A DNA stretch of 64,000 nucleotides from Prevotella sp. (GTDB lineage Bacteria > Bacteroidota > Bacteroidia > Bacteroidales > Bacteroidaceae). The notes under the pieces are model-generated. The model saw nothing but the letters and a program-made list of their open reading frames with translations. It searched no databases and had not been told where the DNA came from. The DNA is taken from positions 1 through 64,000 of the forward strand of contig JAFRPY010000010.1 in NCBI GenBank assembly GCA_017428925.1. Direction: 5' to 3'. The position numbers and the translations under genes were made by a program. Of the stretch, positions 3,822 to 39,683 are shown in pieces. The first letter of the stretch is position 1. Each line of letters opens with the position of its first letter.

Positions 3822-4547
3822 TTAGAAACTGACGTTGACACCACCCATGAACGTGGCGCGGGGCATGGGATAGCCCAGGTTGATTTCGTAGCGCTGTGCC
3901 AGCAGATTCTCGCCGCGAAGCCACAAACCGATGTTCTTGCAAAGGACATATTTGACAGTGCACCCAAGCAGGCAGAAATTTTCTTTTTGCTCGTCATCGC
4001 CGACAGCGGTATAGAGGCCACTGATGTATTGCAGGCCCGCTACGACGCTCCATTTTCCGTAGAGCACAGAGGCAGGGCCTCGCAGCACTTCCACGCGGTC
4101 GGCCATCAGCGTCTGATAACTGTCGCTGATAGGATGACCATAGACACCGTTATATTGCGGATGTCCGTCTATCAGCACCAGCAACTGTCCAGCACCGCCC
4201 GTGATGCCTCGCAGGTTGATGCCGCCAGCCGCTCCCGTCGACACCCCATAGCCCATCATCGAGCGCGAGGTGACAAACAGCCCCGGCACTTGCTGCATCA
4301 CTGTGGGCAGTACACTCGTCTGTTGCTGTTCTGTCAGCACGTCGCGGCCAATGACCGTCACCGTCATCGTCAGGTGACGCACGTCAGTGGCGTTGCGCGT
4401 TCCCGTCACCACCACTTCCTGAAGCGACAGTGAGTCGCAAAGGCCATTACCGTCAACTTTATCCTCAATTGCTCGGCGTTCCTCCGCCGAAGCCAAAAGG
4501 ATGCCTACAGCTGAGGCCATGAGCACCGAAATCAGTCGTTTATTCAT
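3822..4547 (-). pseudogene. TonB-dependent receptor with in-frame internal deletion of the barrel
   Basis: 241 residues in one open frame. Residues 1-22 are a signal peptide. A TonB-box-like segment (EVVVTGTR, 44-51) and a full plug domain follow, up to VEVLRGPASVLYG (152-164). The chain then passes straight into what looks like the last barrel strands of a receptor, with LRGENLLAQRYE and a C-terminal aromatic (VNVSF). A normal receptor has 400-500 more residues between these two parts, so most of the barrel is missing without loss of frame; the join lies near base 4055. A plug with so few strands cannot form a 22-strand pore. It is probably cotranscribed with the downstream GH3 gene. An assembly collapse cannot be excluded. 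Confidence 0.75.
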
Positions 4548-4695: not shown

Positions 4696-6828
4696 TCACT
4701 TGCTATACTCGATGGTGCGCACCTGCTGCTGATTGGATGTCTGTTTGGCATTTACTTTTTCTCCTCCCCTGAAATTCCAGCGCAGCGTTAAGCTGATATT
4801 TTGGCAGGGTTCATGGTTGGCATATAAGCTCTCGAAACCTTTTCCGCTGATGTCGAGCACCCGGCGGTGGCACAGCAATAGTCCCTGTGCGGAAAGCGAA
4901 AGGCCATTGCCGAAATCATGGTCTATGCTGGCCCATAGTTGCGATACGCCGTGGTAGAGCATGTTCGAAGCGCGATAGGTGGGTTCCCAGTTTCCGCTCA
5001 GTGTGGCGGATGTATTCTTGCTTAGGTTGAAGTCGTGGTTCATGCTGAAGTATGGCCTTTTTTGCCATTCATCGTAGAGTATTCCGCCCACCGCTTCGTT
5101 CTGGTTGGCCAGCAGAAAGCGTGCCATCAAACTTGTTGTCCACCAATCCGTCAGTTTCTTCCTGAAATTTGCTGAAAAACCGGCAAATTTAGCAGTCCGC
5201 TCATTGTTGCGGGGCTGCACTATTATGACTCCGTCGTTTCTGGTGGTCTGCTCATACACAAGGTTGTCGTAGTCTTGTTCGTAGTAGGCCGAAAGTCTTA
5301 ACATGTTGTTAAACAGTGACAAGGTTATTCCCACGGCATCTTCCGAGGGTGCAATCAGATTCGGGTTTCCCATGCTGCATTCATTGTTGCTTACCCATTG
5401 GATATTGGGGTTGAGTGTGGAGTAGGGCAGCGCGCTGATGGCGTGGCGATAGTAGACGCTCAGCTCGTGCTGTCCGTTTCTGTCGAGCGGAAGAGATGCC
5501 TGGGCCGTGGGATTTATAGAGTTCTGGGTGTTGTTCACGCCAATTCCATTCAGTTTGTCGGCGTATTCTATTCGGTTCATCTGCCAGTTCAGCCCTACGG
5601 TCCATTTCAGTCTTTTTGTCTTACCTTCCAGTGTGACAAATGTCAGGGGGGTGAGTCCTTTGGCTCTTGTGTCCTCGGTCTGGCTGCTCAGTCGCTGGTT
5701 GCCGCCAATTCCGTCGTTGGTGGTACAGAAATCAACCACTTGCTGCTGAATCGAGGCCCCCAAGTTTAGTGTCGGAGCGTTCTCCTGTTCCGCTTTGCCT
5801 AATCTCATTTGCAGTTTTGCCTCCAACTCGGCCAGCGTGGTTCGCTCTTTCGTGTCATACTGTTCATCGGTTGTTTCACCTTCGTAGCGGTTGTTCTGTC
5901 TTTTCTGCTGACTCAGCAGGTCGACGTTTACTTCTATCCTCATCCCCTTGTCGGCAAGTTGATTGATATATTGCAGTGTGCCCTGCACCAGGTTGCGCTT
6001 GGTGTCGTTGTCAAGCACATTGGGTATAGAGCCGTTCGTCAGGGTGTTTCTTTTCTGCTCATTGTTTCGGTAGAAAGTGCGCAGAGCACCGCCCAGCGAA
6101 CTGTGACCGTCTATGTCGTAGGTGATGCTCAGTCTGTTGAAGGGCAAGCTGATGCTGTAGGTGTTTTCGGTTTGCTCGTTTGTTTTCTGACTGCTATCGT
6201 AAAGATATGTATTTGTTTCGGCTCCTTTTTGTCGTCCGCCGTACCAATAGATATTGTCAATGATGCTCCATCGTCCGCTCACAAAGTTAATCAGCGCGTA
6301 TGGCATAAACGTGGTGTACCCGTATTTCAGGTCTGTTTCTGTGGTCATCTTAATGGAGCCATAGTATCCGTTGTCTTTTGGTTTTCTCATGGTCAGCCGC
6401 AGAATGCCTCCCTTGTTTGTGGCGCTATTGCTGCTGCCCGTCACATATTCCACTTCTGCTGAATTCAGCACGTCAGCAGGCAGCTTCAGAATGTCGTCGC
6501 TGCTTACCTTCATTCCGTTCAGGTAGAAAAGGCTTACCGCTTTTCCATCTGTTTTCACAATCCCGTCTTCCACGCTGATGCCTGGCAGGAATCCCAGCAA
6601 CTCGCTCACCGTTTTTCCCTTGCAGAGCGGCTCGTTCTTCAGGTTGATGGTGTAGCCCCGTGCCGAGTTTCGTATACGGCTTGCTTGAATGGTTACTCCC
6701 TGCAACTCCATTTCGCGGAAAATGGTGGCTGTATCGCCCGTTGTGAGGCTGTCTGATTGTGCGTAAGTCTCTGAACTGCCGCTCCAGCAAACTATGATGC
6801 AAAACAGCAGGATTATTGTTGCTCTCAT
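4696..6828 (-). CDS. TonB-dependent receptor-like outer-membrane barrel
   Basis: About 710 residues. The start at 6828 is preferred because it gives a clean signal peptide beginning MRATIILLF and ending in YAQ; an in-frame ATG 36 bases upstream would add an unlikely extension. A plug-like domain (about 35-170) contains the phrases VSELLGFLPGISVEDG and FYLNGMKV, followed by a long series of alternating beta strands. This is the OMP_b-brl_3 type of receptor, which lacks a carboxypeptidase-like N-terminal domain. It lies downstream of the peptide exporter in the same direction, with a 230-base gap, and may serve the RiPP locus as exit, uptake or receptor protein. Substrate unknown. Confidence 0.8.
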   Translation of the reverse strand: MRATIILLFCIIVCWSGSSETYAQSDSLTTGDTATIFREMELQGVTIQASRIRNSARGYTINLKNEPLCKGKTVSELLGFLPGISVEDGIVKTDGKAVSLFYLNGMKVSSDDILKLPADVLNSAEVEYVTGSSNSATNKGGILRLTMRKPKDNGYYGSIKMTTETDLKYGYTTFMPYALINFVSGRWSIIDNIYWYGGRQKGAETNTYLYDSSQKTNEQTENTYSISLPFNRLSITYDIDGHSSLGGALRTFYRNNEQKRNTLTNGSIPNVLDNDTKRNLVQGTLQYINQLADKGMRIEVNVDLLSQQKRQNNRYEGETTDEQYDTKERTTLAELEAKLQMRLGKAEQENAPTLNLGASIQQQVVDFCTTNDGIGGNQRLSSQTEDTRAKGLTPLTFVTLEGKTKRLKWTVGLNWQMNRIEYADKLNGIGVNNTQNSINPTAQASLPLDRNGQHELSVYYRHAISALPYSTLNPNIQWVSNNECSMGNPNLIAPSEDAVGITLSLFNNMLRLSAYYEQDYDNLVYEQTTRNDGVIIVQPRNNERTAKFAGFSANFRKKLTDWWTTSLMARFLLANQNEAVGGILYDEWQKRPYFSMNHDFNLSKNTSATLSGNWEPTYRASNMLYHGVSQLWASIDHDFGNGLSLSAQGLLLCHRRVLDISGKGFESLYANHEPCQNISLTLRWNFRGGEKVNAKQTSNQQQVRTIEYSK

Positions 6829-6980
6829 ATTAATAAAACACATCGTATAGCGAAAACCAAACAAGAATTAACACTAATTAGGACTTTTTCTTGTTTACAT
6901 AGTCCGCAGAACTTGCGAAGACAAGTCCTGTGGGGTAAAAAAACATTTGCTCGGATGGTAACATCGTTTTCACTGTTACA

Positions 6981-7061
6981 CTACATCAGACTTGGCATTA
7001 ATAACATTGTCAGTAAGGGCAAACACAAAATCCTCAATTTTCTCATGGTCAGAAATTTCAT
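6981..7061 (-). pseudogene. Tiny signal-peptide-like frame after the exporter
   Basis: An ATG overlaps the TGA stop of the exporter gene (ATGA arrangement). The frame encodes 26 residues, basic then hydrophobic (MRKLRILCLPLLTMLL), and meets TAG exactly where a lipoprotein Cys might follow; the next in-frame codons read CNSEND. It could be a broken lipoprotein gene or a short hydrophobic peptide. TAG is used as an ordinary stop elsewhere in the window, so recoding is unlikely. Confidence 0.25.
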
Positions 7062-9265
7062 AGTCCCAATTCCAATTGGTTTTTGATAAGGGTATAATAA
7101 GTGCCTCGCTGTTGGACTAGTTGTTTGTGGGTGCCCTGTTCAACGACACGCCCATGATTCAGTACAACAATATTATCGGCATCTTTAACCGTACTTAGAC
7201 GATGGGCTGCAACAATGACGGTCCGGCCTCGGTAGAACTCACGCAGATTTTCCATGATTATTGTTTCATTGTTGGCATCCAGTGCATTGGTGGCTTCGTC
7301 AAGGAAGATGAGCTTTGGTGACCTGTAAACGGCACGGGCTATAAGAATACGCTGTCGTTGTCCTTGGCTCAGGCCGTTTCCTTCTGCTCCTATTCTTGTG
7401 CGCATCCGCAAGGGCAGCGATTCTATATAATCATTGATGTTTGCAACTTGGACGGCATTTTGCAGCCGCTTTTCATCAATGGTGTCGTCGCCCAATGCAA
7501 TATTACGTGCTATCGTATCAGAGAAGATATAACCGTCTTGCATGACTGTACCTATATTGCTTCGCCATGTGCTTGGTCTTATCTTTCCGATTTCAGTGTT
7601 TCCAATTCTGATGCTGCCTTCCAGTGGGTCGTAGAACCCCAGAAGCAGTTTTATCAGTGTTGTCTTTCCGCTGCCGCTGGCTCCCACCAGTGCCGTCACC
7701 TTTTGGGCGGGAATGACAAGCGAGATGTCTTGGAGGGCATAGTTTCGCCGTGCTCCACTGTAACTGAACCACACATGGTCCAGTGTTATGTCATGATTAT
7801 CTGGCAATGTTGTCTGCCAGTCATCATTAGTATCCTCTTCGTCTGGACGCTGGTGGATTTCGTCAAGCCGGTCCATGCTTATTGCCGCATCTTGAAGTTC
7901 TCGTGCAAAACCTATCATATTATGTAAGGGGGCTGATACTTGGCCTATAATATATGTGAGTGACATCATCATGCCTAATGTCAATTGACCTTCAACAACG
8001 GCTTTTGCGGCAATGAAGGTGATGATAACATTGGTGGTCTGTGAGAAGAATAGCTGACCCAGTTGCTGCCATTGTCCTAATTGAAGGCTGCGTACATTGA
8101 TTTTATAAAGCACTCTCTGTATGCGCTGCCATTCCCATCGTTTCTGCCGTTCACAGCCAGTCAGTTTGATGTCTTGCATGCCTTGTACTATCTGTATGAT
8201 GTTCTGCTGCTCAGCAGCCGACTGGTTGAAGCGGCGAATGTCGAGCTCCCTTCTATAGTGCATGAAATAAATTACCCATAAGACGTAGAGTGTATTACCA
8301 GCAAGAAACAGGCAGAGTATGAACAGATGATAATAGGCCAGAATAGCGGAAAAGACGATGAAATTGAAGACCGAGAAAACAATGTTAAGCGAAGAACCCG
8401 TGAGTAGCTGTTTGATGCGGTCATGATCGCTAATACGCTGCATAATGTCACCAGTGTTCTTCGTGTCGAAAAAACGAAGTGGAAGTTTCATGAGTTTTTC
8501 GAGAAAATCAGAAATCATGGCCACTCCCACCTTCGTGTTCATGCGTAATGTCAGCCATCCGTTTATAAAGTCGGTCGTCATTTGGGCAAAGGTCAGCATC
8601 AACTGAGCGATGAGTACCAGTGTGATTAGATTTAGGCTGTGAGTTCCGATTCCTTTATCTACCAATGCCTGTGTGAGAAGGGGAAAAGCCATTTGAATGC
8701 CGCTTCCAGCCAAAAGACATGACAAAAGAAAGAACAGTTGACGGACGTAAGGCCGGAAGTAGCGCATAAAGAACTTAATCCTGTGGTTTGGTTTCTGGCT
8801 TTCGTCAGAGTGATGAAAGAAATCGGGACCAGGTTCCAGAAGCAAGGCCAGTCCTTGGGGCGTTTGCCCTTTCATGTCAGAAGCCCAGCATTTCATGAAT
8901 TCCTCTTTATGATAAGTAGCTTTTCCTGACGCAGGATCAGCAATATGGATTTTTTCTTTACCCCTTTTTCTCAGTTTCACTTTGTAGCATACCACAAAGT
9001 GCTGCTGATTCCAGTGCAGAATACAGGGCAGAGGCACGTCCTTTTCCAGCTGGTCGAATGTAAGCCTGACTCCTAATGTCCGTAGGCCAATTCGTTCTGC
9101 CGCCTCGCTGATGCCCTGCATCGAAACGCCCTCGCGGGTGATGTAGCAATAGTCGCGCAGGGTTTGTATCGAGTATTCCTTTCCATAATACGCGGCAATC
9201 ATCTTCAAAGAGGCCGGCCCGCAGTCCATGTCGTCAAGTTGACGGGATATGACGATACTTTGCAT
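7058..9265 (-). CDS. Peptidase C39-domain ABC transporter (GG-leader peptide exporter, PCAT)
   Basis: A 735-residue inner-membrane exporter that cuts a precursor after its double-glycine leader and moves the core out of the cytoplasm. The C39 protease has Gln9, catalytic Cys15 (DCGPAS), His89 (HFVVCY) and Asp110 (ADPASG). A six-helix membrane domain follows (about 165-450). The nucleotide-binding domain has Walker A GASGSGKT (528-535), signature LSQGQ (632-636), Walker B LIFLDE (652-657) and the switch His688. All residues needed for activity are present. It lies 32 bases downstream of a TonB-type barrel and two genes downstream of two precursors with GG leaders, its evident substrates. No HlyD-type adaptor gene is nearby. 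Confidence 0.93.
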   Translation of the reverse strand: MQSIVISRQLDDMDCGPASLKMIAAYYGKEYSIQTLRDYCYITREGVSMQGISEAAERIGLRTLGVRLTFDQLEKDVPLPCILHWNQQHFVVCYKVKLRKRGKEKIHIADPASGKATYHKEEFMKCWASDMKGQTPQGLALLLEPGPDFFHHSDESQKPNHRIKFFMRYFRPYVRQLFFLLSCLLAGSGIQMAFPLLTQALVDKGIGTHSLNLITLVLIAQLMLTFAQMTTDFINGWLTLRMNTKVGVAMISDFLEKLMKLPLRFFDTKNTGDIMQRISDHDRIKQLLTGSSLNIVFSVFNFIVFSAILAYYHLFILCLFLAGNTLYVLWVIYFMHYRRELDIRRFNQSAAEQQNIIQIVQGMQDIKLTGCERQKRWEWQRIQRVLYKINVRSLQLGQWQQLGQLFFSQTTNVIITFIAAKAVVEGQLTLGMMMSLTYIIGQVSAPLHNMIGFARELQDAAISMDRLDEIHQRPDEEDTNDDWQTTLPDNHDITLDHVWFSYSGARRNYALQDISLVIPAQKVTALVGASGSGKTTLIKLLLGFYDPLEGSIRIGNTEIGKIRPSTWRSNIGTVMQDGYIFSDTIARNIALGDDTIDEKRLQNAVQVANINDYIESLPLRMRTRIGAEGNGLSQGQRQRILIARAVYRSPKLIFLDEATNALDANNETIIMENLREFYRGRTVIVAAHRLSTVKDADNIVVLNHGRVVEQGTHKQLVQQRGTYYTLIKNQLELGL

Positions 9266-9297: not shown

Positions 9298-11394
9298 TTA
9301 TTCAGCCGTTGCCTGCTGATTGGTCAGTTTCCTTACTTCCCGGCCATGGGCTAATCTGTAAATCACCAATATGTTCAGCATGTTTTTCTTAGTCGAAAAG
9401 CTGTCGTAGGAATATTCACGCGTATAGGCAGGCGTGTAAGTGTTTGAGTACGACTGGTAGTCGGCAGCCCATTTCAGTGGCAGCTGATAGTTGATTTGCA
9501 GCAAAAGCTTGTTCTTGCAGAACCTTTTCGCGTAAACCAGCTCCACCCCGTCTTTGTTATAAACGTATGATGTGCTTTGAAGGGTGATTCCCTTTCGGGG
9601 CTGAAACCAATAGACCATCGTGAGGTCTCCCAGTTTGTCGTGCTGGTAAGTCAGTCCGCAACTGGTTCCGAACCAAGATACGCTTTTGCGCTCAGACCCG
9701 TATTTCAGCGCGGTCGTGTTGTATTCGGCATCGAGGTCAATGGTGAGGGCTGCGTTCTTCAGCTGAATCTGATCCTTATAAAATGCCATTAGGAACAATG
9801 AGGAATTCCTCATATTGTCGTAGGTCTGCCATATCATCCCGTCAGTTGTCTTATAAACCGGTTCAATATGATTCGCGTCATGGTTCAGGAAGGCCCAGAG
9901 TCCGAACTTGGAGTAGGAAATGTCTGCAGAGATGTAGTGATTGGCTGTATGTTTTAAACCGCTATTTCCAGAACTTACCGTCAAAGAGTCTAAGGTTCGC
10001 CTTACTGTTGAAAGCTGGACCAATGTCGGGTATGACAGCTGGTAGCGGTAATTCATGCTTGCCGACAATTTGTTGTTCATGGCCGAAAGGCGCAGTTGTG
10101 CGTTGCCTCCCCAGAGGAACTGACGGTCTTTCAGACCGCCAAAACTATGAGTGTGTGAATATTCTGCCACTCCCCCCACGCTACCAGAGATGTTAGGCGT
10201 AAAGCGATGGCTCAGTTTGCCGTAGAATCTGTGATGCATGCTGTTGTAGCTTATTTCTTGCCTGTTCTCAGACAGTCCGTCGGTCAGATTCCTATATAAA
10301 CCTTGAAGGCCAAAATTGAGTCTGTTACTCTTGCCGACATTAATATTGGCATCTGCATTATATTGTAAGACGTTGTATGTGTTATCCGTATTGGTGCTCG
10401 TCTGGTAATTCTGTTCGGAGAAGTTGTAATAGCGGAAGTCATGCTGACGGCTATAAGTGATGTTCGAGTAGAGATTCCACCCCTTGAATTCCCCTCTGTA
10501 ATAAACGCTGAACGCATGATACCTTTTCTGCACGTCATCCCTGCTGTTTCGCTCCACTACCTGCGACGTGTTTTGCGGAATGTTGCTTTTTTCCATCTGA
10601 TAACGGCTGTTCATGTTATTATCCTGCACAACGAAGGAATATTTGAAAGACACAATCTGTTTTTTGTTGATTCTATAGTCCGCGTCAGCCCAGGCATAAT
10701 GAATGTTCTTCTGTGAATACTCTGACGATATTTTATCTTCGAGCGTGTTATAGCGGAGTAAGTTTTGTTCGGTCATGGCTATCCTGACGTTTTTCCATTC
10801 GTCGTTGTGCTTGAAAGAGTAGTTGGCAGAGGCGTCTATGTGCGGACTGGTAAAAGAAAAAAAAGAATATGGTGCCGTCTCGTTTGTGTCCCCAGAGGGA
10901 GCTGCACTGAAGGTTCCTCTCGCAATCCCCTCATAGCCCAACCATTCATTCCTGCTGATCAGATTCACCACCACGTCGTAGTCTTGATAGCGTCCCGTTG
11001 GGTGCTGTGTAATCTCTATTTTATGAAACCTTTTGTTGACCAGCATCCCCACGAAGTCGGCCTCTTTCTCTATTCCGTTAATGAGGAAGCGGATATTGTC
11101 CCGTCCCATATAAGTAAGGCTTCTTGAGGATCTGTTATAGAAGAATCCGGGAATCTTGCCTACCAATTCGTTGGTGTCATACGTGCCATGTCTCATCTCG
11201 TCGGTAATGGTCCATACATCCTTGTCCATGTCGTGCACAACCTTCGACCCCTTCACGACGACGCTGTCCAGTACTTCGCTCCGCCAGATGCTGTCGTTTG
11301 GGATACTGTCAGCCTGTTGTGACTGCTCGTTTGATTGAGCAGCCACAACGAGAGGTAACAACGAGGAGAATATAGAGAATAGAATCTTCTTCAT
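9298..11394 (-). CDS. TonB-dependent receptor-like outer-membrane barrel of the RiPP locus
   Basis: 698 residues: signal peptide (1-19, ending AAQ), a plug-like domain at about 45-150 (VVVKGSKV, NELVGKIPGFFYN, FLINGIEKEADF), then a beta-rich barrel to the C terminus. It resembles the OMP_b-brl_3 receptors. It sits between the precursor genes (12 bases upstream) and the exporter (32 bases downstream), so it is almost certainly part of the same transcript. Export to the cell surface, re-import of a loaded peptide, or self-protection are all possible roles; the sequence does not decide between them. Confidence 0.82.
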   Translation of the reverse strand: MKKILFSIFSSLLPLVVAAQSNEQSQQADSIPNDSIWRSEVLDSVVVKGSKVVHDMDKDVWTITDEMRHGTYDTNELVGKIPGFFYNRSSRSLTYMGRDNIRFLINGIEKEADFVGMLVNKRFHKIEITQHPTGRYQDYDVVVNLISRNEWLGYEGIARGTFSAAPSGDTNETAPYSFFSFTSPHIDASANYSFKHNDEWKNVRIAMTEQNLLRYNTLEDKISSEYSQKNIHYAWADADYRINKKQIVSFKYSFVVQDNNMNSRYQMEKSNIPQNTSQVVERNSRDDVQKRYHAFSVYYRGEFKGWNLYSNITYSRQHDFRYYNFSEQNYQTSTNTDNTYNVLQYNADANINVGKSNRLNFGLQGLYRNLTDGLSENRQEISYNSMHHRFYGKLSHRFTPNISGSVGGVAEYSHTHSFGGLKDRQFLWGGNAQLRLSAMNNKLSASMNYRYQLSYPTLVQLSTVRRTLDSLTVSSGNSGLKHTANHYISADISYSKFGLWAFLNHDANHIEPVYKTTDGMIWQTYDNMRNSSLFLMAFYKDQIQLKNAALTIDLDAEYNTTALKYGSERKSVSWFGTSCGLTYQHDKLGDLTMVYWFQPRKGITLQSTSYVYNKDGVELVYAKRFCKNKLLLQINYQLPLKWAADYQSYSNTYTPAYTREYSYDSFSTKKNMLNILVIYRLAHGREVRKLTNQQATAE

Positions 11395-11406: not shown

Positions 11407-11634
11407 TTATTCCGTTGGAAATCCGCCTTCACATTTTCCTGTGTTATTGCAGTAACCATTAGAGCACCCGTCATTGGTACATACGCCATTAACACAGGAT
11501 AGATTATAACAAAGCACAAAAGTGCAGGAAGAATGAAACCCTATATCGGAAACACTTGCACCTCCAAATACTTCAAGTTTTTGGATTTCTGACAGAATGT
11601 CTAAATTCTTGGGTGTTTTTCTATCCAACATCAT
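11407..11634 (-). CDS. GG-leader RiPP precursor B, seven-Cys repeat core
   Basis: About 75 residues. ATGs at 11640, 11634 and 11631 all overlap the end of precursor A, so translation is probably coupled; 11634 is a guess, and a longer frame opens at 11658. The leader carries LDILSEIQKLEVFGG, nearly identical to that of precursor A, ending in a GG site for the C39 exporter. The core has seven Cys. Counting from 11634 they are at residues 37, 42, 47, 52, 57, 62 and 68: five-residue spacing with one six at the end. Motifs such as CVNGVC and CSNGYC recur. The core differs from A elsewhere, as expected of paralogous precursors. The mature structure is unknown. Confidence 0.85.
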   Translation of the reverse strand: MMLDRKTPKNLDILSEIQKLEVFGGASVSDIGFHSSCTFVLCYNLSCVNGVCTNDGCSNGYCNNTGKCEGGFPTE

Positions 11635-11851
11635 GACCATTTTGGCAAACTCCGTCATTGCAATAACCGTTAGTGCAGTCTAAATTAAAGCAACTGCCGT
11701 TTGTGCATGAGCCGTTTTTACATTTGCCATGTGCACATTCAGTATTATTGCCTTTTGTCGGATTACCTCCGCCTCCCAATACTTCTAATTGTTCCATCTC
11801 GGAAAGTATGTCTAATCCTTCCGTTGACAAAGCTTTCTTTCTTTTTTCCAT
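11621..11851 (-). CDS. GG-leader RiPP precursor A, seven-Cys pentad-repeat core
   Basis: 76 residues. The leader ends in LDILSEMEQLEVLGG with the GG cut site at 26-27. The core has seven Cys at exactly five-residue spacing (39, 44, 49, 54, 59, 64, 69); the units read CxxGx or CxNGx in most copies (CKNGS, CTNGS, CTNGY). It lies 12 bases after the radical SAM gene and overlaps the start of precursor B. The GG leader, exporter and radical SAM/SPASM neighbour match the general plan of Bacteroidales GG-leader natural products. Regular Cys spacing suggests repeated thioether or disulfide links; which one is inference. Confidence 0.88.
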   Translation of the reverse strand: MEKRKKALSTEGLDILSEMEQLEVLGGGGNPTKGNNTECAHGKCKNGSCTNGSCFNLDCTNGYCNDGVCQNGHDVG

Positions 11852-11863
11852 GATTTCATAATT

Positions 11864-13150
11864 TTAATTGTTAGTACTAATATATTGTTCACAATAGTGC
11901 ACTATTTCTTGCCTCCAGTGTAAATCAGGATCAGCAAATCTGCAATAGATATGCTGTCTTTGGGCAAACATGTCATTCCGTTCTTTAGGACATGGTCCAT
12001 AACAAACAGGAAGATACTGGCATGTCCGACAGGCAGATTCGTTATCGGAGAATACGTCATAATGAAGAAAAGCTGGGGATTCTTCCCATTTGATGCTCCC
12101 GTCTTGTGAAATCATTCCTTTAGAACTATCCATTTCTTCATTGTCGCATTTGTCAATTTTTCCATTGGGGAAAGCACAATTGAACTGGAACTTATCAACA
12201 TAGCAAATACTGAAACCGACACCTACAGTAACTCTATATCCTGATTCTCTTGAATTTTTTACCAGATCCTCTATCAACTGTTTATCTACACCCTGTTCAT
12301 CTTGTTGCCATACCTTCATTACGGACAACTGAATATTGTTCCGGATGTTCTCAGGTATATGTTGGTTGAGGTCTTCAATAATAGCGTTTGGCTTCAAGTT
12401 TTCGTTTGTATAGTTATAACGCAGGCATATTTCTGCATTAGGCAGTATCTCATTTATCAAACAGACGTTGTTTAACGTGGAGATATACGCAGACTTGTCC
12501 TTCAGCTTTTTAACGCCATCGTGGTATTCTTTTGTTCCGTCAATGGTGATTTGGAAAAAAGTAAAATCCAGATCTCGCATTTTCTCCAGATAGTCTCTTG
12601 AAAGAAGAGTGCCGTTGGTTGTAATAGATGCTTGAAACGAAAGATTTAGTTTTTTACATATTTCTTTTGCAAAAAAAGTTATGTCTTGAACACATTCAAA
12701 ATTAAGCATGGGTTCTCCCCCAAACCACGAAAGATGGAATCCTTCCAAATCATGATGAGATAAATACCATTCAATATGCTTCTTTATTTTAGCCACATCT
12801 ATTTCTGACAGCGTCACATTGCGGTGATGCTGAGTGCAATACCAACAGCGGACATTGCACTGATAGGTTGGTAATATCATAAGATGATAGAAACTGCTGT
12901 TCCTCATCTGTTCATATTGCTTTCGGACAGTATCCAATTCGTCTGTATCATTGTTTACGATAAATCCTTCTTCTGTCATTTGATTCATAAAAGGAGCATA
13001 CGTTTCTTGATAATCGTCGGGAGAAGACAATATCTTCAAGAAATAGTCCTTATTGTGGTCGCTTACACGGAAAAAACGCTTTGTAACACCATTGAAGATA
13101 ATGTAATCGTCTTCGTAAGGCAGGCATATATTGTATTTGCTTGCTTTCAT
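11864..13150 (-). CDS. Radical SAM/SPASM peptide maturase
   Basis: 428 residues. An N-terminal region (1-90) has a winged-helix-like, peptide-recognition character. The radical SAM core carries Cys98, Cys102 and Cys105 (CNVRCWYC) for the SAM-binding 4Fe-4S cluster, with WFGGEP downstream. A Cys-rich SPASM region follows (CAFPNG, CDNEE, CRTCQYLPVCYGPC, then YCRF near 405), which would hold auxiliary clusters. It is 12 bases upstream of the Cys-repeat precursors, so they are the likely substrates. Similar Bacteroidales maturases pair with GG-leader peptides. The modification may be thioether or carbon-carbon cross-linking; the choice cannot be made from sequence. Confidence 0.92.
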   Translation of the reverse strand: MKASKYNICLPYEDDYIIFNGVTKRFFRVSDHNKDYFLKILSSPDDYQETYAPFMNQMTEEGFIVNNDTDELDTVRKQYEQMRNSSFYHLMILPTYQCNVRCWYCTQHHRNVTLSEIDVAKIKKHIEWYLSHHDLEGFHLSWFGGEPMLNFECVQDITFFAKEICKKLNLSFQASITTNGTLLSRDYLEKMRDLDFTFFQITIDGTKEYHDGVKKLKDKSAYISTLNNVCLINEILPNAEICLRYNYTNENLKPNAIIEDLNQHIPENIRNNIQLSVMKVWQQDEQGVDKQLIEDLVKNSRESGYRVTVGVGFSICYVDKFQFNCAFPNGKIDKCDNEEMDSSKGMISQDGSIKWEESPAFLHYDVFSDNESACRTCQYLPVCYGPCPKERNDMFAQRQHIYCRFADPDLHWRQEIVHYCEQYISTNN

Positions 13151-13290: not shown

Positions 13291-13641
13291 TCATATCGTT
13301 ATTTCATACGCTAAAATGGTGTTTTCACCTATTTTAATATAAACAGCATACTCGCCTGTACCGAAAGCTAACAGGGGATAATAGAATGTGGAACCCACCC
13401 CAATATTCTCCAATCGTTCATCGCTAACCAGACTTCCGTCTTTATAAATTTGAATGTTGGCCGTTGTTATTACGCGTGTGAAACCAATAGACAAGACTCC
13501 AGTCAAATCATTGAAAGAGATGTTCCATGCTATTGATGGAGGTATAAGGTGTGGACCGTCATGGCCGTTTGTTTGCGCATGCCCGCCGATGGGGTAAAGT
13601 GCAAACGTACACATAGCAATTATAAAAAGGATTTTTTTCAT
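13291..13641 (-). CDS. Small secreted DUF3244-like protein
   Basis: 116 residues with a signal peptide (1-22, ending HAQ) and a compact beta-sandwich-like remainder. The phrases ISFNDLTGVLSIGF and GTGEYAVYIKIG fit the DUF3244 family, small exported proteins of unknown function in Bacteroidota. It is the first gene on the RiPP side of the divergent region and precedes the maturase by 140 bases. The second regulator locus in this window also starts with a DUF3244-like gene (39684-40043), which suggests a functional link with the TPR-HTH regulators. No catalytic motif is visible. Confidence 0.7.
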   Translation of the reverse strand: MKKILFIIAMCTFALYPIGGHAQTNGHDGPHLIPPSIAWNISFNDLTGVLSIGFTRVITTANIQIYKDGSLVSDERLENIGVGSTFYYPLLAFGTGEYAVYIKIGENTILAYEITI

Positions 13642-13883: not shown

Positions 13884-15503
13884 ATGAAATTGATCGTATA
13901 TACATCTTTATTTGTTTTTTTATTTGCAGGTTGTAGCCAGCAACGAACGGTATATTCAGAACTTGCAGAAATCGATCAGCTTTTAATTGCAGAGCAAACG
14001 GATTCGGCCTTAAAGAAGCTTCCTATGATTGATGTAAGGAATCTAAATGAAGAATTGTCTGCCTATTACTATTTGCTTGAAACACAATGCCAATACAAGC
14101 TATATATGCCTATCCGCTCAGATTCCGTTATAAACATAGCGGAAACGTATTACAGAAAAACAGGTGATGAAGAGAAACTTGCCCGTTCACTTTTTTACAG
14201 AAGCTGTGTTCTTTCTGACATTGGGAAAAAAGCAGAGGCCCTGCAATGCTTGAAGCAAGCCGAAGTCTTGATCCAGAAACTATCCGAGGATTATTTGTCG
14301 CATAATGTGTATTATCAGTTAGCCTCTCTCAATTCATATTACCAAGAATACCAGCTGGCATTGGAAAATATAAAGAAGGCGATCTTTTATGCTTCAAAAG
14401 CGAACAGGGTACTATATCTTGCCTACGACTACGAAAAGGCTGCTGTTTATTACGACCATTTTGGGTTATCCGACAGCAGTTCTTCTTATATCCGCAAGTG
14501 CATTTCACTAATTAATTTGATTCCAGAAAAGCCAGCTTCGAATCGTGCCCGATTATTCGGGAACGTGGGTGCTTTGTATTGTTCGATAGACAAAGATTCT
14601 GCAAAATTCTTTTTAGAGAAATCCTTCGAATTAGATCCTCAAGGAAATGTGTGTACGGCTCTTGCTGAATTATTCTTGGAAGAAAAAGATACTTCCAAAG
14701 CAATTAGTATACTGGAAGAGGGCATAAAGGTGAGCGACTATCTCGGATTTAAAGAAAAGAATTTGTTGAAACTTAGTGACATTATGCGAATGAAGGGCAA
14801 TTTCCGTCAAGCTGACGAATTAACATTAGCAGCAAATGTCCTGAAAGACTCATTAGCCAACAGGTTTCATGTGGAAAACGTCAAGGCACAGCAAATAGAA
14901 TTTGACAGAAGAGTTGAGCAAAAACAAGCAGAAAAAGCGAAATGGTGGCTGGATGTGAGTGTTTGCTTTTTAGCAGTGGTGATTTTTATGATGGCATGGG
15001 TCTATTTCAGAAAGAAGAAAAAGACCTCGTTGGCTTTGAAAGAAAAGGGGAAACTTATTGAAGAACTGCGTGAAGACCGAAATGATGCAAACAAGAAACT
15101 AAAGGCAACCCAAGACAAGATGAACTCTATGAAGCTTGACTTGCAGGAACATGAGCGAAAAATACGCTCATACGACCGTGAACGGAAAAAGCGTGAACTG
15201 TCGTTAGAACATGGATGCATTCTGCTGGAGTCACTCCTGAACCAGGGAAACATTGCATTATGGAATCATCAAGACTACGAAGACTTTACAAGTTACTATC
15301 GCATAACTAACAGCAAATTTGCAAAAGAAATTGATGAAGAATATACGGATTTGTCTCCCAATCAGAATGTGCTCGTCATTTTGGAACATATAGGCATGAG
15401 CGACGGTGATATTATGCGAGCCATGAATCTGGCCAATGGTGCCCTCCGGACATTGCGATCGCGGCTGAAACAACGCAGGTTGGATGGTAAGACTAATTCT
15501 TGA
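13884..15503 (+). CDS. TPR lipoprotein-type membrane regulator with C-terminal HTH
   Basis: 539 residues. It begins with a lipoprotein-like signal (FLFAGCSQQ, Cys17), followed by TPR-like helices to about 350, one membrane segment (about 357-374, VCFLAVVIFMMAWVYF), a basic coiled coil (375-440), and a C-terminal helical segment with helix-turn-helix character (GMSDGDIMRAMNLANGA). This architecture could sense peptides or envelope state outside and act on DNA inside. It is divergent from the RiPP operon and is therefore its likely regulator. The gene at 40191-41915 has the same plan. DNA binding is inferred from the C-terminal segment only. Confidence 0.7.
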   Translation: MKLIVYTSLFVFLFAGCSQQRTVYSELAEIDQLLIAEQTDSALKKLPMIDVRNLNEELSAYYYLLETQCQYKLYMPIRSDSVINIAETYYRKTGDEEKLARSLFYRSCVLSDIGKKAEALQCLKQAEVLIQKLSEDYLSHNVYYQLASLNSYYQEYQLALENIKKAIFYASKANRVLYLAYDYEKAAVYYDHFGLSDSSSSYIRKCISLINLIPEKPASNRARLFGNVGALYCSIDKDSAKFFLEKSFELDPQGNVCTALAELFLEEKDTSKAISILEEGIKVSDYLGFKEKNLLKLSDIMRMKGNFRQADELTLAANVLKDSLANRFHVENVKAQQIEFDRRVEQKQAEKAKWWLDVSVCFLAVVIFMMAWVYFRKKKKTSLALKEKGKLIEELREDRNDANKKLKATQDKMNSMKLDLQEHERKIRSYDRERKKRELSLEHGCILLESLLNQGNIALWNHQDYEDFTSYYRITNSKFAKEIDEEYTDLSPNQNVLVILEHIGMSDGDIMRAMNLANGALRTLRSRLKQRRLDGKTNS

Positions 15504-31449: not shown

Positions 31450-32148
31450 GGTTCCTATCTTTCTAATAAGGAATCTTATAGTCAGAAGAATAAGCAAAAC
31501 TATAGTAATACCTACATAATAAAGGAAATATTTTTCAAAGAAAGAAACATATTTTTGTATATATCCTTGAATATTATCTCTTTCATAAGGGGCTATTTTA
31601 CTCAATACTTCTTTTTCAAATGCACTAATTGTTTCTTTGTTTTTATCATAAGGAGCCCTTCTTCCATTTATTGCAAAATAATTTTTCCACTGGTTTGAAT
31701 CATTTGCGGAATAAGATGGGTTATATTCATGTAATTTAACTTTTATTGATTTTTCATCCGTAACATAAAATTTTACATAGCCATCTATAGAAGAAATAGG
31801 ATAACGACAATACACACTCCTAAAATAATCTTTAGAATCAGTTGACCCCCTTTTCTTTAGGGATTTTGGAACCATATAGTCTTTACTCATGTATTCAATC
31901 TTTTTGTACTCCCCATGAAATGGTTCATGAAACACAAAGCATTCCATACTATCTGTTGTGCTTGATTTGTATAGTTTTTTGTACTTTTCCTTAAAGTCCA
32001 AGAAATTAATATTATTCAAATAGAAAATTTGTCCATTCATATTCGCACCATACATTCTCTCATTTAGGATGAGAACAAGAATTGTCATCCCCAAAATAAA
32101 GAGATAAGCGATAACTATATATTTATAAAACCTAACGAATGATGTCAT
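31426..32148 (-). CDS. Membrane protein overlapping the Rhs toxin gene, candidate immunity protein
   Basis: 240 residues. A membrane segment near the N terminus (about 9-28, YIVIAYLFILGMTILVLIL), a long non-cytoplasmic-looking region rich in Lys and Tyr (30-205), and a second membrane segment near the C terminus (about 208-228). No family recognised. Its start overlaps the Rhs 3' end by 17 bases, the usual coupling of toxin and immunity genes, and its low GC matches the toxin tip rather than the Rhs body. A membrane-spanning immunity protein would suit a phospholipase toxin. The role is inference from context. Confidence 0.6.
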   Translation of the reverse strand: MTSFVRFYKYIVIAYLFILGMTILVLILNERMYGANMNGQIFYLNNINFLDFKEKYKKLYKSSTTDSMECFVFHEPFHGEYKKIEYMSKDYMVPKSLKKRGSTDSKDYFRSVYCRYPISSIDGYVKFYVTDEKSIKVKLHEYNPSYSANDSNQWKNYFAINGRRAPYDKNKETISAFEKEVLSKIAPYERDNIQGYIQKYVSFFEKYFLYYVGITIVLLILLTIRFLIRKIGTKSHRGDF

Positions 32149-35100
32149 AAATTAGTCCTCTTGGTATATTAACAAATTTATCCACAGCGATAGCCCCAAA
32201 CAACACACCTGCGCCTATCCCCCAACACCATCGTTCGGAGCCAATCTTAGATGTCATCGCATCATTCAATGCTCTTTTTGTTAATTGCCAGTCTGCCCAA
32301 TAGACCGACCGATTAAATAAAGCGGCATCGACACCTTTAGCATTGACAGCATCGTACGCTTTATCGTGCATAAATGCTGCATAGTCAAGTTTGTCTATTG
32401 GAGGTACTGCATAAAAATATCCATTCATGTTATTAGAATTCTCGGGGTTCTCCGATCCGAGATATATTCCATAATAGTTGTCACCCATATTGCCATTGTT
32501 GGTAATCATATTATCATTACCAATATGAAGTAGCCCTTCTATAGAAACCTCACTTTTCACCAAATTTCCTGAGGCATCAGCGAAACTACCATCATTATTG
32601 AGCGTATAATAAGTTAACAAGCCATCCTCTGTATTTCTGAACACTGTTCCTCTTGAACCTACATATTGTATGTCATAAAAATCACGATACTCTCCATTAT
32701 AATACTCTTTAATAATATCATCTTGATTTCTTATTCTGCTATCGTAATATACAAACAATTCGTCTCCGTATTTGGCTCTTATCCAATCGCATCCATTAGG
32801 GTCTATCGCATTTACTGGGTTATTCTCGCAATAATTATACGGACTTAGGCTGTAGTATTTCTCACACAGCGGATCAATACTATTCCACGTCAGCAGGATG
32901 GGGTCGTACATACGTGCACCGTAGTCGTACCATTTCAGTCCGTGCATCAGGTCGAGTTCCTTGCTGTTGTATTTGTAGCGCTGCAACGTGGCATTGGTGT
33001 TCACACCAGCCGTGGTGGGCTCGCAGAATGGAGCACCGAAGGGATAGTAGTTGGTGACCTGTTCCAGCGTGCCGCTCTCATTGACCACCTCGCGGTTATT
33101 GCCCAGGTGGTCCTGATTGTAATAGTGCCAGCCGATGCCGCCGTTCAGCGAGCAATAGCCGCCTGGGAATAGGTACTGCTTGGGTGCGCCGTTCTCCATG
33201 ATGAGGTTGTCGAAATAGTCGATGGAGTCCTTCGACAGAATCTCAGCGGCAGACAACTGGTGCGTCTCTCCGCTCCCAACGTTGATGCCCGGAACGGCGG
33301 TATAGTAAATGGTGCGCAGTTTCCGTCCCGTGGCCGTATAGACATATTCCGTGACGTTGCCGTTAGCAAACTGTATGCGCCGGGGCATGCCGTTGTCATC
33401 GTAGGCGATGAACATGATGCCCTTGCCCGTGTCGGTGATAAGCGAGCCGTTGGCGTTGTATTGGTAGGCACTGTGGTTATACTGGTCGCCATGGAAGTCA
33501 AAGGCCCCGTCGTAGAGCAGTTTCTCGGCATCGTCTTCCACATAGTGCAGGCGGTTGCCCTTGACGGTGATGTGCAGGTTGTCCACCTTGCCGTGCTCTC
33601 CGTCGTTCTTCATGCCGCGCCGCTGCAGGCGTTTCACGGCTCCGCTCTGGTAGTACGCCAGAATCTGTTCGTTGAAATAGTTCTTGTGGTAGCTGAGTGC
33701 GTCGCGTTCCCCGTAGATGCCTTCCGTGAGCCGGTTCAGCGCATCGTAGGTGAACTTGTAGCCGCGCTTCTGGGCGTAGTTGCCGTTGCTCCATTTCTGC
33801 ACGCTGACATTTCCGTTATAGCATGGCGTGCCAGAGCAACCGCCGTCGGAAGCATAGTAGAGTTCTTCGCGGAAACTGGGCGTGGTGATATTGGTAATCC
33901 ATCCGTGGAGGTCGTACTGATAGCTGACCGTGCCCGTGCTACCGGGACGGGCTATGGATGATACCTGCCCGAGGTCGTTGTAGGTGATGTTCTGTACGGT
34001 GCGCGACGATGTGGGCTGACTGTTGTTGACGCCTACCTGAAGGGTGGTGGCATGAAGCTTGTCGTTAGCGGCATAATAGGTGTTGCCGGCATGGGCGACG
34101 AACGCTGTGCCCTGACTGCTGTGAAGGAGTCGATACTCCGAAGTCTGTGGATTGTCCGTGAAGGTGTAGGCCGTGGTCCGTACTTCCGTCAGCGAGGCGT
34201 CAAGCGTGGTGCTGCGCGTTTCCACTACACGCCCCCTGTCGTCGTAGAGGTTGATTGAGCATACAAAGCCGCCATTAGAGACGGCAGTGACGCTGCCCGT
34301 GGGCAGTCCCTTCACACAGATGCCGTTTTGGGCGGTTATCGGCAAGAACATGCCTGACATGCTGCCCGACAGGAACTCGTAACTGTCGTAGTAGTTTACA
34401 ATCTCTAAAGAGGGAGATGTTATAGTGACGCTGTTGCTGATTACATAGCCCGTGGAAAGGAAACCTCCAGAGCCTGGGGTAAAAGTGGCAACAGGCACCA
34501 CTGAGGACACAGCCGACAGCCCTCCTCCGCTGCAAGTCCCCTGGACGGCAAGCCGCCCGAAGACATCGTAGAGCATGAAGCGGTAGCGGTTTTTCTCCTG
34601 GAGCATGCCGTCCTGCATGAAGGCCACACGGTCGGCACTGTCGTACCAATATTGGATGTACCCGGCCCCCGGAAAGCGCTTCCTGGTGACACGCCCCAGA
34701 TCATCATACTCATACCCGTATGAAGTGTGGTTGGGGTCGGCAGAGTTATAGCCTGGCATCTGAACACTGGCCAACAGCCCAAAGTTGTTGTAAATATAGC
34801 GGGTGTAGTTCCCTGTTCCTCTGCTTTCCTGAACCTTCTGCCCTTGCAGGTTGTAGAAGGTGGTGAGCGTATGTCCGTCCTCATCGGTAGCCGACTCACC
34901 CGTAAGGGAACCCACAGGATGGGAAGTGTAGTCACCAGCCCTGTTGATGATGTTCGCAATCGTCTTTTTCTTGTTTCCAGTATGCCACGCACCTCCGGGC
35001 ATTATGGATTCCGTCTGCCTTCCAAGTGCATCATAGACAAAACTACCGTAGCCATAATTGTCACTGTATTGTGACGATGACAGTGAGGAAACACTGCTCT

Positions 35101-35419
35101 CGGCCATCAACTCTATGGAGGATGTGCCTGACACTGAGAGCCACTGGCGGCTGATGTTCCCTGCTGCATCGTAAGTTTGAAGGGTATAGGCGAAGTTGCC
35201 GTTCATGCCCAGTCCGTTCGTGGCGGAAAGGACCGACCGCCCCCGTCCGTCGTAGAACTGGTAGGAGGTGACGGCATGGGTCTGAAGGCTGTCGAGCATC
35301 CTGACAGTCTTCACGTAGTTGGCATTGGGCTGGGCAACGGAGGTTATCAGTCCGATGAAGAGGCAAAGCAGAACAGCAAGAGGTCTCTGTATTATCTTTT
35401 CACTATAGATTTTCATCAT
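32132..35419 (-). CDS. Rhs/YD-repeat protein with phospholipase A2-like C-terminal tip
   Basis: 1095 residues. A signal peptide-like start (about 1-29), then many YD repeats (YEYDDLGRVTRKRF, YDVFGRLAVQG). The Rhs core ends with DYGARMYDPILLTWNSIDPL and the closing AIDPNG at 871-876. The following 219-residue tip differs from the core and is AT-rich. It holds features of a secreted-type PLA2: a calcium-loop-like YYGIYLG (982-988), then PPIDKLD and the His-Asp pair HDKAY (1018-1022), and WADWQL (about 1041-1046) with a second Asp. Such a tip would cleave membrane phospholipids of a competitor. The toxin role is inferred. It is followed by an overlapping membrane protein. Confidence 0.82.
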   Translation of the reverse strand: MMKIYSEKIIQRPLAVLLCLFIGLITSVAQPNANYVKTVRMLDSLQTHAVTSYQFYDGRGRSVLSATNGLGMNGNFAYTLQTYDAAGNISRQWLSVSGTSSIELMAESSVSSLSSSQYSDNYGYGSFVYDALGRQTESIMPGGAWHTGNKKKTIANIINRAGDYTSHPVGSLTGESATDEDGHTLTTFYNLQGQKVQESRGTGNYTRYIYNNFGLLASVQMPGYNSADPNHTSYGYEYDDLGRVTRKRFPGAGYIQYWYDSADRVAFMQDGMLQEKNRYRFMLYDVFGRLAVQGTCSGGGLSAVSSVVPVATFTPGSGGFLSTGYVISNSVTITSPSLEIVNYYDSYEFLSGSMSGMFLPITAQNGICVKGLPTGSVTAVSNGGFVCSINLYDDRGRVVETRSTTLDASLTEVRTTAYTFTDNPQTSEYRLLHSSQGTAFVAHAGNTYYAANDKLHATTLQVGVNNSQPTSSRTVQNITYNDLGQVSSIARPGSTGTVSYQYDLHGWITNITTPSFREELYYASDGGCSGTPCYNGNVSVQKWSNGNYAQKRGYKFTYDALNRLTEGIYGERDALSYHKNYFNEQILAYYQSGAVKRLQRRGMKNDGEHGKVDNLHITVKGNRLHYVEDDAEKLLYDGAFDFHGDQYNHSAYQYNANGSLITDTGKGIMFIAYDDNGMPRRIQFANGNVTEYVYTATGRKLRTIYYTAVPGINVGSGETHQLSAAEILSKDSIDYFDNLIMENGAPKQYLFPGGYCSLNGGIGWHYYNQDHLGNNREVVNESGTLEQVTNYYPFGAPFCEPTTAGVNTNATLQRYKYNSKELDLMHGLKWYDYGARMYDPILLTWNSIDPLCEKYYSLSPYNYCENNPVNAIDPNGCDWIRAKYGDELFVYYDSRIRNQDDIIKEYYNGEYRDFYDIQYVGSRGTVFRNTEDGLLTYYTLNNDGSFADASGNLVKSEVSIEGLLHIGNDNMITNNGNMGDNYYGIYLGSENPENSNNMNGYFYAVPPIDKLDYAAFMHDKAYDAVNAKGVDAALFNRSVYWADWQLTKRALNDAMTSKIGSERWCWGIGAGVLFGAIAVDKFVNIPRGLIYDIIR

Positions 35420-39600: not shown

Positions 39601-39662
39601 GACTGAGAAAAACCTTTTCCTACCGAAAGGAGCAGGAAAAGGAGGAACAAGAAGTATCTCAT
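36636..39662 (-). CDS. YD-repeat/Rhs-like surface protein without toxin tip
   Basis: About 1008 residues from the ATG at 39662, chosen because MRYFLFLLFLLLSVGKGFSQ is a clean signal peptide; the frame opens seven codons earlier. The N-terminal part (FNIGASIETALSKGQPSIVIPLFELQGKGYNLPVSLVFYGG) resembles the start of SpvB/YD-repeat secreted proteins of Bacteroidota. The C terminus has YD repeats (YTYDPYYGLTSEFDY, YTYDGFGRLSAQYDD) and stops at NYTYHYGH, with no Rhs core and no toxin domain. In the same operon as the Rhs toxin, it may form part of the shell or delivery structure. Inference. Confidence 0.72.
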   Translation of the reverse strand: MRYFLFLLFLLLSVGKGFSQSVVNYEVYRPSVNSEQFNIGASIETALSKGQPSIVIPLFELQGKGYNLPVSLVFYGGDVNCETEASTIGLGWSLMAGGCITKTVRDKDDSFITTINDAPWQFQDNYLESMFQNPPIGGFSIESMYPDMMPDEFKYSIPGHEGSLEMVQNDQQQYYQKLFPDESYKLEQTANGYMIIADDGTKFIFEDEEYKRKYNDNMTVETSAWFLSRIETVKGGNFFFNYAEEKIIDAHDEYERNWYGGYQTKRITSIVSDFGSITFTSAGNRMDRSAYDMLGTPLSTLSERITKIELKDDSGAVVKGYELKNNGYFTNVIQDTRGKMDWSNYRMRLDSIVPYDSLGNKLPPYVFNYSYRFYRAKTCYNPDYNTNNVNTKRGSWTETPFFQVLVDLSLSGEPACRMINYGTPNEFLQGFSTITDYYDGTVDDYFCLDSVRYPTGAIDAFEYESHNYTQIAGNDIDPNVNLKIEGKRLKRKVSEDGSGDGQNNTVTEYIYRKHNSNYELAGGSSGVLTNPSFHNATLYSYGTIPGGSMGYVANRITTDRPLNSYYGQPVYYREVEEVIKNNNGSTLKRIIHYMLDNLIEPPKNYIYVKSNVGGLDHFTIVPNLIYGIRTGYYWVVNDYNNQNFTYLAYPVGEFCPQSQDGGRPRMEVLIDDNGRVIEKKEYTYAPTVEDTRYGYVYIKDENTSPYNTVYNISRSSYRAYRTHVVSISETTYSYRDGHCDSLVTEKSYGYRLGRIAGNLMTRQNETIQVYNYFPDELNVSTGTGLSPEAQAVVALQQKNMIGTPLQTIKSLNGISVEGHYSDYIVLSDSLVVPKAFYNLSLNNSFVGNPYVSNGSIIKNSRFYLQERALTYDANMNPSHVESRTSPDKVYVWGYGGRYPVAIIENYTETELNGNYQLSSLLSLLDSYKKIDTQSTSATLKSLNMNIRNCIPKGVLVKTYTYDPYYGLTSEFDYSGVGTIYTYDGFGRLSAQYDDHFNLLENYTYHYGH

Positions 39663-39683
39663 CGTGCTATTCTGTTTAAACAC

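Follow-up and report, generated by a model that had tools for sequence, protein, structure and literature searches.

A window of 64,000 nucleotides from Prevotella sp. (contig JAFRPY010000010.1 of assembly GCA_017428925.1, which is 85% complete with 5.4% contamination) was analysed around two adjacent genes for short peptides, precursors A and B, which carry a cysteine at almost every fifth residue and lie beside the gene for a radical S-adenosylmethionine (rSAM) enzyme with a SPASM domain. The question raised by this locus is what such an enzyme would make of such arrays. We proposed that the locus produces a two-peptide ribosomally synthesized and post-translationally modified peptide (RiPP), in which Cys-Asn/Asp thioethers, with Cys(i)-Asn(i+2) as the preferred link, would build up a ladder of ranthipeptide-like type. 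This reading, drawn from sequence comparisons, is preferred tentatively, at a likelihood just short of even.

The cysteine arrays and the adjoining maturase

Precursor A (11621..11851, minus strand) was found to be a peptide of 76 residues with a GG leader at residues 1-27 and a core of seven Cys at exact steps of five (residues 39, 44, 49, 54, 59, 64 and 69); an orthologue was present in the related locus L002, described below. Precursor B (11407..11658, minus strand) comprised 83 residues when read from the first ATG and showed a GG leader followed by Cys steps of 5, 5, 5, 5, 5 and 6. The start of B may well be the ATG at 11634 or 11631, in which case some 14 bases would be shared with the end of A. 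The two leaders, LDILSEMEQLEVLGG and LDILSEIQKLEVFGG, fitted the consensus LDILSExxxLEVxGG that had been given in a preliminary description of the locus, and the Cys positions listed there, including the single six-residue step at the end of B, were borne out. The statement that many units read CxNGx was refined by counting over the closed pentads of the two precursors, 11 in all, where exact CxNGx occurred in 5, CxN in 8, Cx[N/D] in 9 and Gly at +3 of Cys in 7.

The regularity of the arrays was compared with that of shuffled cores, and as many equal Cys steps were reached in 0 of 200,000 shuffles for A and in 34 of 200,000 for B. The mean nucleotide identity between units was 52% in A and 43% in B (39% and 35% at third positions), and Tandem Repeats Finder returned 0 rows. 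Since the spacing was rare in shuffles, the identity between units low and a tandem repeat absent, the spacing looks to be held at the protein level rather than left by recent duplication, and both a chance array and DNA slippage were ruled out. When 9,030 open segments of at least 30 residues from 40 sources were scanned, a run of four or more equal Cys steps was recorded in 8, all of them short peptides with a GG leader encoded in maturase loci of this kind; the loci had been selected by their maturases, and the figure serves to gauge chance arrays and is no survey. The search of the precursors against sequence databases that had been envisaged gave no meaningful match of A or B to the NCBIfam model of the precursor CefA or to any other NCBIfam model (one chance match at E 0.2), and neither peptide matched the rSAM-modified RiPP leader model TIGR04149 (cut-off 25) at E up to 1.

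The maturase (11864..13150, minus strand; 428 residues; PF04055 at 1.9e-15) ends 12 bases before A, as had been noted. It contains the CX3CX2C motif and seven SPASM Cys, arranged as Cx13Gx4C ... CX2CX5CX3C with a further Cys, and the ten cluster Cys were invariant across 14 aligned sequences, that of the window included. The combination of CX3CX2C, a SPASM rSAM enzyme and an adjacent Cys-rich precursor, by which ranthipeptides are recognized, is therefore present, although it is common to sactipeptides. A C39-peptidase ATP-binding cassette (ABC) exporter, that is, a peptidase-containing ABC transporter (PCAT), is encoded downstream (7058..9265, minus strand; 735 residues; PF03412, PF00664 and PF00005 above cut-off), as the preliminary description had stated, with a gene for an outer-membrane beta-barrel protein (OMP) intervening (9298..11394, minus strand; 698 residues; PF14905 at 1.6e-12; TonB-plug-like N-terminus by eye). 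Short leader/core precursors hence stand beside a modifying enzyme and an exporter, as is expected of a RiPP locus. PCATs cleave GG-leader peptides after the GG and export them. The GG leaders and the C39 exporter together thus point to cleavage after GG and export, by which the cores would span 11624..11770 in A and 11410..11559 in B (both minus strand).

A profile of the 14 maturases was searched against the PDB, and CteB (5wgg/5why) was retrieved first at 1.8e-32; 8vpo, ChlB and sulfatase maturases came next (1e-17 to 1e-14), and the sactipeptide maturase SkfB reached 5.9e-07; section 3.4 of PMC10352776 gives structure 5WGG as CteB. Against NCBIfam, all of the best 25 of 62 matches of the maturase remained below cut-off. 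The highest score among the matches listed was that of the TIGR04463 maturase (130.3 bits against a cut-off of 525), and lower ones were obtained for the FlmE/OhkG maturase NF052473 (126.4 against 500), the Clo7bot maturase TIGR04334 (112.4 against 600), CefB NF038107 (107.3 against 600), PapB NF047865 (85.4 against 340) and the SCIFF maturase TIGR03974 (63.3 against 425), as well as for a sulfatase maturase (64 bits), a QhpD-type enzyme (57 bits) and the sactipeptide maturase RumMC (56 bits). The names OhkG and FlmE did not occur among the matches listed for the literature searched.

Relatives and the residues that persist

Matches to the maturase were detected in 34 of 299 genus genomes at E ≤ 1e-20, in 22 of 301 family genomes at 1e-40 and in 3 of 398 genus genomes at 1e-70, and the maturase of L069 used as the query matched in 7 of 399 family genomes at 1e-75; the genome draws overlapped and included the own genome. 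The sole relative obtained by a pattern-seeded search of species genomes was L002, an uncultured Prevotella assembly with a maturase 76% identical to that of the window. Besides it, the best identity to the window maturase among the matches listed was 46% over part of the length. The genes of L002 follow the order small protein, maturase, one precursor, OMP and exporter, the last four being ordered as in the window, and the OMP and the exporter are 67% and 86% identical to their window counterparts. The proportion of differences at nonsynonymous sites (pN) between the two loci was 0.133 for the maturase, where that at synonymous sites (pS) was 0.695, and pN was 0.076 for the exporter and 0.45 for the core, with synonymous sites near saturation in this comparison. 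The core evolves fast, and the maturase and the exporter are constrained.

In a tree of 43 maturase sequences, the window formed a clade with L002, L069, L070, L071, L072, L033 and L032 (support 100/100). Copies broken or incomplete as read (L038, L040, L042, L073 and L076) were left out of the tree, as were others such as L022-L031, L047, L049, L078, L089, L093, L094, L097, L098 and L103. The maturases of L069, L070 and L071 were 39-41% identical to that of the window, and the corresponding precursors, situated between the OMP and the exporter (in L076 likewise after the OMP gene), had leaders reading LSEMExLxVxGG or close to it (LSGVDMLHVFGG in L071). The L071 core consists of eight CxDAGSG-like heptads, and that of L069 has four seven-residue steps with C-x-[N/D]-x-G in three. 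Two precursors were seen in L070, with steps of 6, 8 and others; Asn stands at +3 of all 3 Cys in one and of 6 of the 9 Cys in the other. An irregular Cys core was found in L076, where the maturase frame is broken, and short Cys cores in L072, L033 and L032, so that the cores within the maturase clade differ widely (CNKCDKC in L033, CSIYLSC in L072). The L069 precursor scored 19.2 bits for TIGR04149, below its cut-off.

The conservation of Cys spacing in homologues had been set beforehand as a check on the preliminary description, and its outcome was divided. The spacing was nearly kept in L002 (steps of 5, 5, 5, 5, 6 and 5, then a lone Cys ten residues further) and was lost in the 39-41% identical homologues. 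Heptads in L069 and L071, mixed steps in L070 and the homologues L076, L072, L033 and L032, which have no such array, ruled out the strict pentad as a family rule. The maturase clade is tied neither to the pentad nor wholly to Cys-x-Asn/Asp; the feature common to its arrayed members is a Cys with a nearby Asn or Asp, at +2 or +3. Outside this clade, L087 has a maturase in a separate clade and two precursors with CxNxx pentads. Since CefA, too, has pentads elsewhere, the pentad arose or persisted more than once.

The persistence of single residues was followed in a unit-by-unit alignment of A and the L002 precursor, in which one gap in unit 5 was set manually beside the computed gap position. 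Cys was identical in 7 of 7 units and the residue at +2 in 6 of 7 (N, N, N, N, D, N), against 0, 1 and 0 of 7 at +1, +3 and +4, and an identity of 6 of 7 at any one position was reached in 5 of 200,000 shuffles. Asn or Asp (N/D) occupied +2 in 21 of the 24 pentads of five precursors, a count that omits the lone last Cys of L002. Intervals other than pentads were counted in six clade cores (A, B, L002, L069, L071 and the second L070 precursor), Cys steps shorter than four being skipped; the first L070 precursor, L076, L072, L033 and L032 were tallied only in a separate recount. Of these 21 intervals, 14 had N/D at +2, 6 at +3 and 1 at -3. By locus, +2 was kept in B, L002, L069 and L071 and +3 in L070, the case at -3 being an L070 interval (CTVNPGC) in which the same Asn is also at +3; one more case of -3 occurred in the first L070 precursor, outside the count.

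Several further observations were made on the related loci. The two L087 precursors lie at 470-793 and 5637-5945 (minus strand), and a glycosyltransferase-like protein (by eye) is encoded between the OMP and the second of them. In L069, the exporter is followed by a protein of 171 residues of no Pfam family and by a Core-2/I-branching glycosyltransferase fused to a methyltransferase (L069:644-2107, minus strand), which may tailor the peptide, with its Ser/Thr-Gly tail, further; look-alikes of these genes, recognized by eye, extend past the end of the stretch in L070 and L071. Beside a related maturase, L037 encodes a precursor with eight four-residue Cys steps such as CGSN and CGMS (6929-7216, minus strand), and L044 a similar, shorter one. 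The maturases of L073 (G383 contig C8) and L076 (G430 contig C42), close to that of the window and with broken frames, are decayed copies or assembly errors; the OMP gene of L073 is also frame-broken, and no precursor was seen there. Precursors with three spaced CxCGSxNSN repeats occur beside distant maturase relatives at L025:873-1145 and L026:2801-3073.

Ring topology and rival explanations

The motifs of the enzyme, the position of CteB as its nearest relative in the PDB and the precedents for Cys-Asn/Asp chemistry led us to propose beta-thioethers to Asn or Asp. Two such precedents were available: excerpts of PMC8326336 and PMC13361665 report a Cys23-Asn20 beta-thioether in NxxcA, and excerpts of PMC9413430 and PMC8326336 report six Cys-x3-Asp thioethers to Asp beta-carbons in freyrasin. 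In the proposed pathway, the rSAM/SPASM enzyme of the two-peptide operon would act on the Cys arrays of both precursors and install small non-alpha thioether rings, each Cys sulphur being joined to a nearby Asn (or Asp). The likeliest acceptor would be the beta-carbon of the residue two positions downstream (Cys-x-Asn/Asp), so that A could carry as many as six rings and B as many as five. The exporter would then cut after GG by means of its C39 domain, the products would be exported, and the OMP may serve their passage across, or recognition at, the outer membrane. We infer the reaction, acceptor, topology, cleavage and export in this form; as to biological role, an interbacterial peptide (a two-peptide agent) or a signal may be guessed at. 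The interpretation in the preliminary description, where thioethers to Asn were one possibility, stood in part: the locus is of rSAM/SPASM RiPP type and combines a Cys array with a GG leader and a C39 exporter, thioether chemistry to Asn is plausible, and the cross-link itself stays a prediction. The further idea of a Prevotellaceae ladder family, in which a single maturase clade would write tandem three-residue Cys-x-Asn/Asp rings at period 5, 7 or mixed (L070) while the ring stays constant, the pentad pair being the densest, with only two residues between one ring and the next, is possible but doubtful.

A number of observations weigh against the proposed ladder. The NCBIfam scores fail to separate the thioether types (PapB 85 and SCIFF 63 against sulfatase maturase 64 and RumMC 56 bits), and an AlphaFold model of the maturase, built from a two-row alignment, had a mean predicted local distance difference test score (pLDDT) of 54, which was too poor to be used. 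In CteA, a Cys32-Thr34 gamma-thioether is reported among the excerpts of PMC8326336, PMC13361665, PMC9413430 and PMC11002830, unreconciled with earlier reports of Thr37, and an i to i+2 Cys-Asn thioether was not found in the available parts of the literature searched. The first units of A (CAHGK), B (CTFVL) and L002 (CSYDN) lack N/D at +2. No Cys of L076, L072, L033 or L032 has N/D at +2 and the Asn of L070 stands at +3 instead, so the enzymes of the clade need not share one rule. Eight of the 14 cases at +2 come from the single repetitive core of L071. Outside the clade, the 19 non-pentad intervals of four cores (one each of L087, L082, L081 and L100, the further precursors of these loci being uncounted) gave N/D at +2 in 9, at +3 in 13 and at -3 in 12, the high value at -3 arising mainly from hexads that place Asn at both +3 and -3. 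Finally, in a pure pentad, a residue at +2 of a Cys also sits at -3 of the following one, which renders Cys-x-Asn and Asn-x-x-Cys indistinguishable. The array ends of the five pentad precursors do not decide between them: four of the five carry N/D three residues before the first Cys, and four of the five carry it two residues after the last.

This ambiguity leaves room for a tandem NxxC ladder, in which each Cys would be linked to the beta-carbon of an Asn standing three residues before it, a bond that NxxcB makes once in NxxcA. The NxxcA bond itself, the 21 of 24 pentads, the upstream N/D at four of five first Cys and, from beyond the clade, the L081 and L082 hexads, of which 10 of 11 have N/D at -3, all agree with it. 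An Asn three residues before each Cys is indeed present in most pentads, but it fails in other intervals: the six-residue steps of B (CNNTGKC) and L002 (CSNINGC) retain +2 and have lost -3, and none of the 12 heptads found in L069 and L071 has N/D at -3, 11 of them having it at +2. In addition, the final unit of A and unit 7 of L002 retain CxN with no Cys three residues past the Asn. On account of these non-pentad intervals, notably the heptads, Cys-x-Asn/Asp was preferred for this locus, and the upstream ladder was considered unlikely. Less likely still is another modification (an alpha-carbon sactionine, a C-C or ether bond, or epimerisation) with Cys, Asn or Gly, the Cys being free or in disulfides. 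Such reactions are on record for rSAM/SPASM enzymes in the parts of the literature available, the frequent Gly at +3, the very different cores served by the clade (those of L033 and L072) and the compatibility of sactipeptide maturases with the NCBIfam scores would suit it; against this, the nearest solved structure, CteB, is that of a non-alpha thioether former, SkfB was retrieved far more weakly, and the conserved pair is Cys with Asn/Asp, the pair used by NxxcB and PapB.

It is improbable that the products are secreted Cys-rich peptides whose Cys serve as disulfide partners or metal ligands, the rSAM enzyme altering little or nothing in the array. By eye CxNGxC looks EGF-like, and a PDB search with precursor A gave nothing informative, but the maturase lies only 12 bases away and is retained beside the precursor in L002, and a change of period from 5 to 7 in L069 and L071 with the Cys-Asn/Asp pair kept is unexpected for a disulfide fold. 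Plain membership in the CefA/CefB Cys-every-fifth family, which the 107 bits of the maturase to NF038107 and the equal Cys period might suggest, is very improbable: the cut-off is 600 bits, the precursors gave no match to NF038108, a known CefA has 679 residues with CGADA units, and the maturase adjoining it falls in another clade. Membership was rejected on these scores, the maturase used for comparison being of TIGR04463 type (589.6 bits; 224.7 for CefB) and not a true CefB.

The preliminary description had named no described product with this exact repeat, but novelty of the repeat as such was not supported. A Cys-every-fifth RiPP is already catalogued, as CefA/CefB in NCBIfam, with CGADA pentads in CefA, and CxNxx pentads recur in L087; the present locus is not the first of its sort. 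In the open-licence literature, no paper was found for the name 'Cys-every-fifth' or for 'every fifth' combined with radical SAM and cysteine. What is new is a pairing of Cys with Asn/Asp that arrayed relatives retain despite changes of period. The proposed beta-thioethers from Cys to an Asn at i+2, if true, would constitute a new type of ring. The relatives would then supply a natural series of substrates (periods 5, 7 and mixed, with Asn or Asp acceptors) for related enzymes, suited to the study of donor and acceptor choice and of processivity along an array by rSAM enzymes, and a distinct, uncharacterised group would be added to the Bacteroidales RiPPs.

Neighbouring genes and comparison with known systems

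Upstream of the maturase, a small secreted-looking protein of 116 residues is encoded (13291..13641, minus strand), with no Pfam or NCBIfam match above cut-off; tblastn against 13 loci gave no match at 1e-3. A small protein is encoded at the equivalent place in L002, so that the position is common, whereas homology was not supported by tblastn. Further upstream stands the gene of a divergent tetratricopeptide repeat (TPR) protein (13884..15503, plus strand; Pfam TPR_12 at cut-off, other TPR models below), to which a lipoprotein-like N-terminus, a coiled coil and a helix-turn-helix-like C-terminus were assigned by eye. It had tblastn matches of 24-30% identity in 6 of 13 loci and is possibly a regulator. 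Apart from L002, 12 loci were compared with the OMP at 9298..11394, and 10 of them gave matches. The exporter gene is followed immediately by that of a second PF14905 OMP (4696..6864, minus strand) with no tblastn match in 13 loci, and then a short TonB-receptor remnant (3822..4547, minus strand) consisting of a plug domain and, apparently, the barrel end only. Two long RHS/YD-repeat proteins are encoded at 32132..35419 and 36636..39683 (minus strand), RHS being assigned by Pfam in the first and by eye in the second.

The locus is related to, and on sequence grounds does not fall within, the CefA/CefB family. Both have Cys at every fifth residue and an adjoining rSAM/SPASM maturase. The CefA of a Methylomagnum plasmid, however, is a protein of 679 residues with a long front part (a lectin model below cut-off) and CGADA units, with Asp at +3, beside a TIGR04463 maturase and an rSAM C-methyltransferase, whereas the window encodes peptides of 76 and 83 residues with GG leaders, Asn at +2 and a C39 exporter. 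The CefA model NF038108 (cut-off 30) gave 60.7 bits for the annotated CefA P0001 and left A and B unmatched at E up to 1. The CefB family was also sought at E ≤ 1e-80; this found no match in 101 genomes and none in 14 control genomes and was uninformative.

Among systems of established chemistry, freyrasin (PapA/PapB) resembles the locus in its tandem Cys-acceptor units, with the six rSAM-made thioethers to Asp beta-carbons reported in the excerpts of PMC9413430 and PMC8326336; it differs in the Cys-x3-Asp spacing, where Cys-x-Asn/Asp is proposed here, and in the low PapB score of the maturase (85 against 340). The Cys-Asn beta-thioether given for NxxcA/NxxcB in the excerpts is the very bond proposed for the window, but there it forms one ring to an Asn three residues upstream, in a streptococcal peptide. 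With SCIFF/thermocellin (CteA/CteB), the locus shares the nearest solved structure by sequence and, if the Cys32-Thr34 link is accepted, an i to i+2 topology; by the same partial accounts, the acceptor in CteA is a Thr gamma-carbon and is disputed, and one ring was identified. The Clo7bot system (TIGR04334) has a related maturase (112 bits) and several Cys-rich precursors in a single locus, though the cut-off is 600 and the nine small open reading frames of the one locus inspected have irregular Cys spacing and no GG leader.

A similar setting is that of the Bacteroidales rSAM RiPP clusters, which, according to the sections of PMC10352776 available, have GG precursors, rSAM enzymes, C39 exporters, OMP and TPR genes; no periodic Cys array was found described in those sections. 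Cleavage after GG and PCAT export are described for Bacteroidales in section 3.2 of that source, and several of its clusters pair a PCAT with an OMP and have no fusion protein, as is likewise the case in the window.

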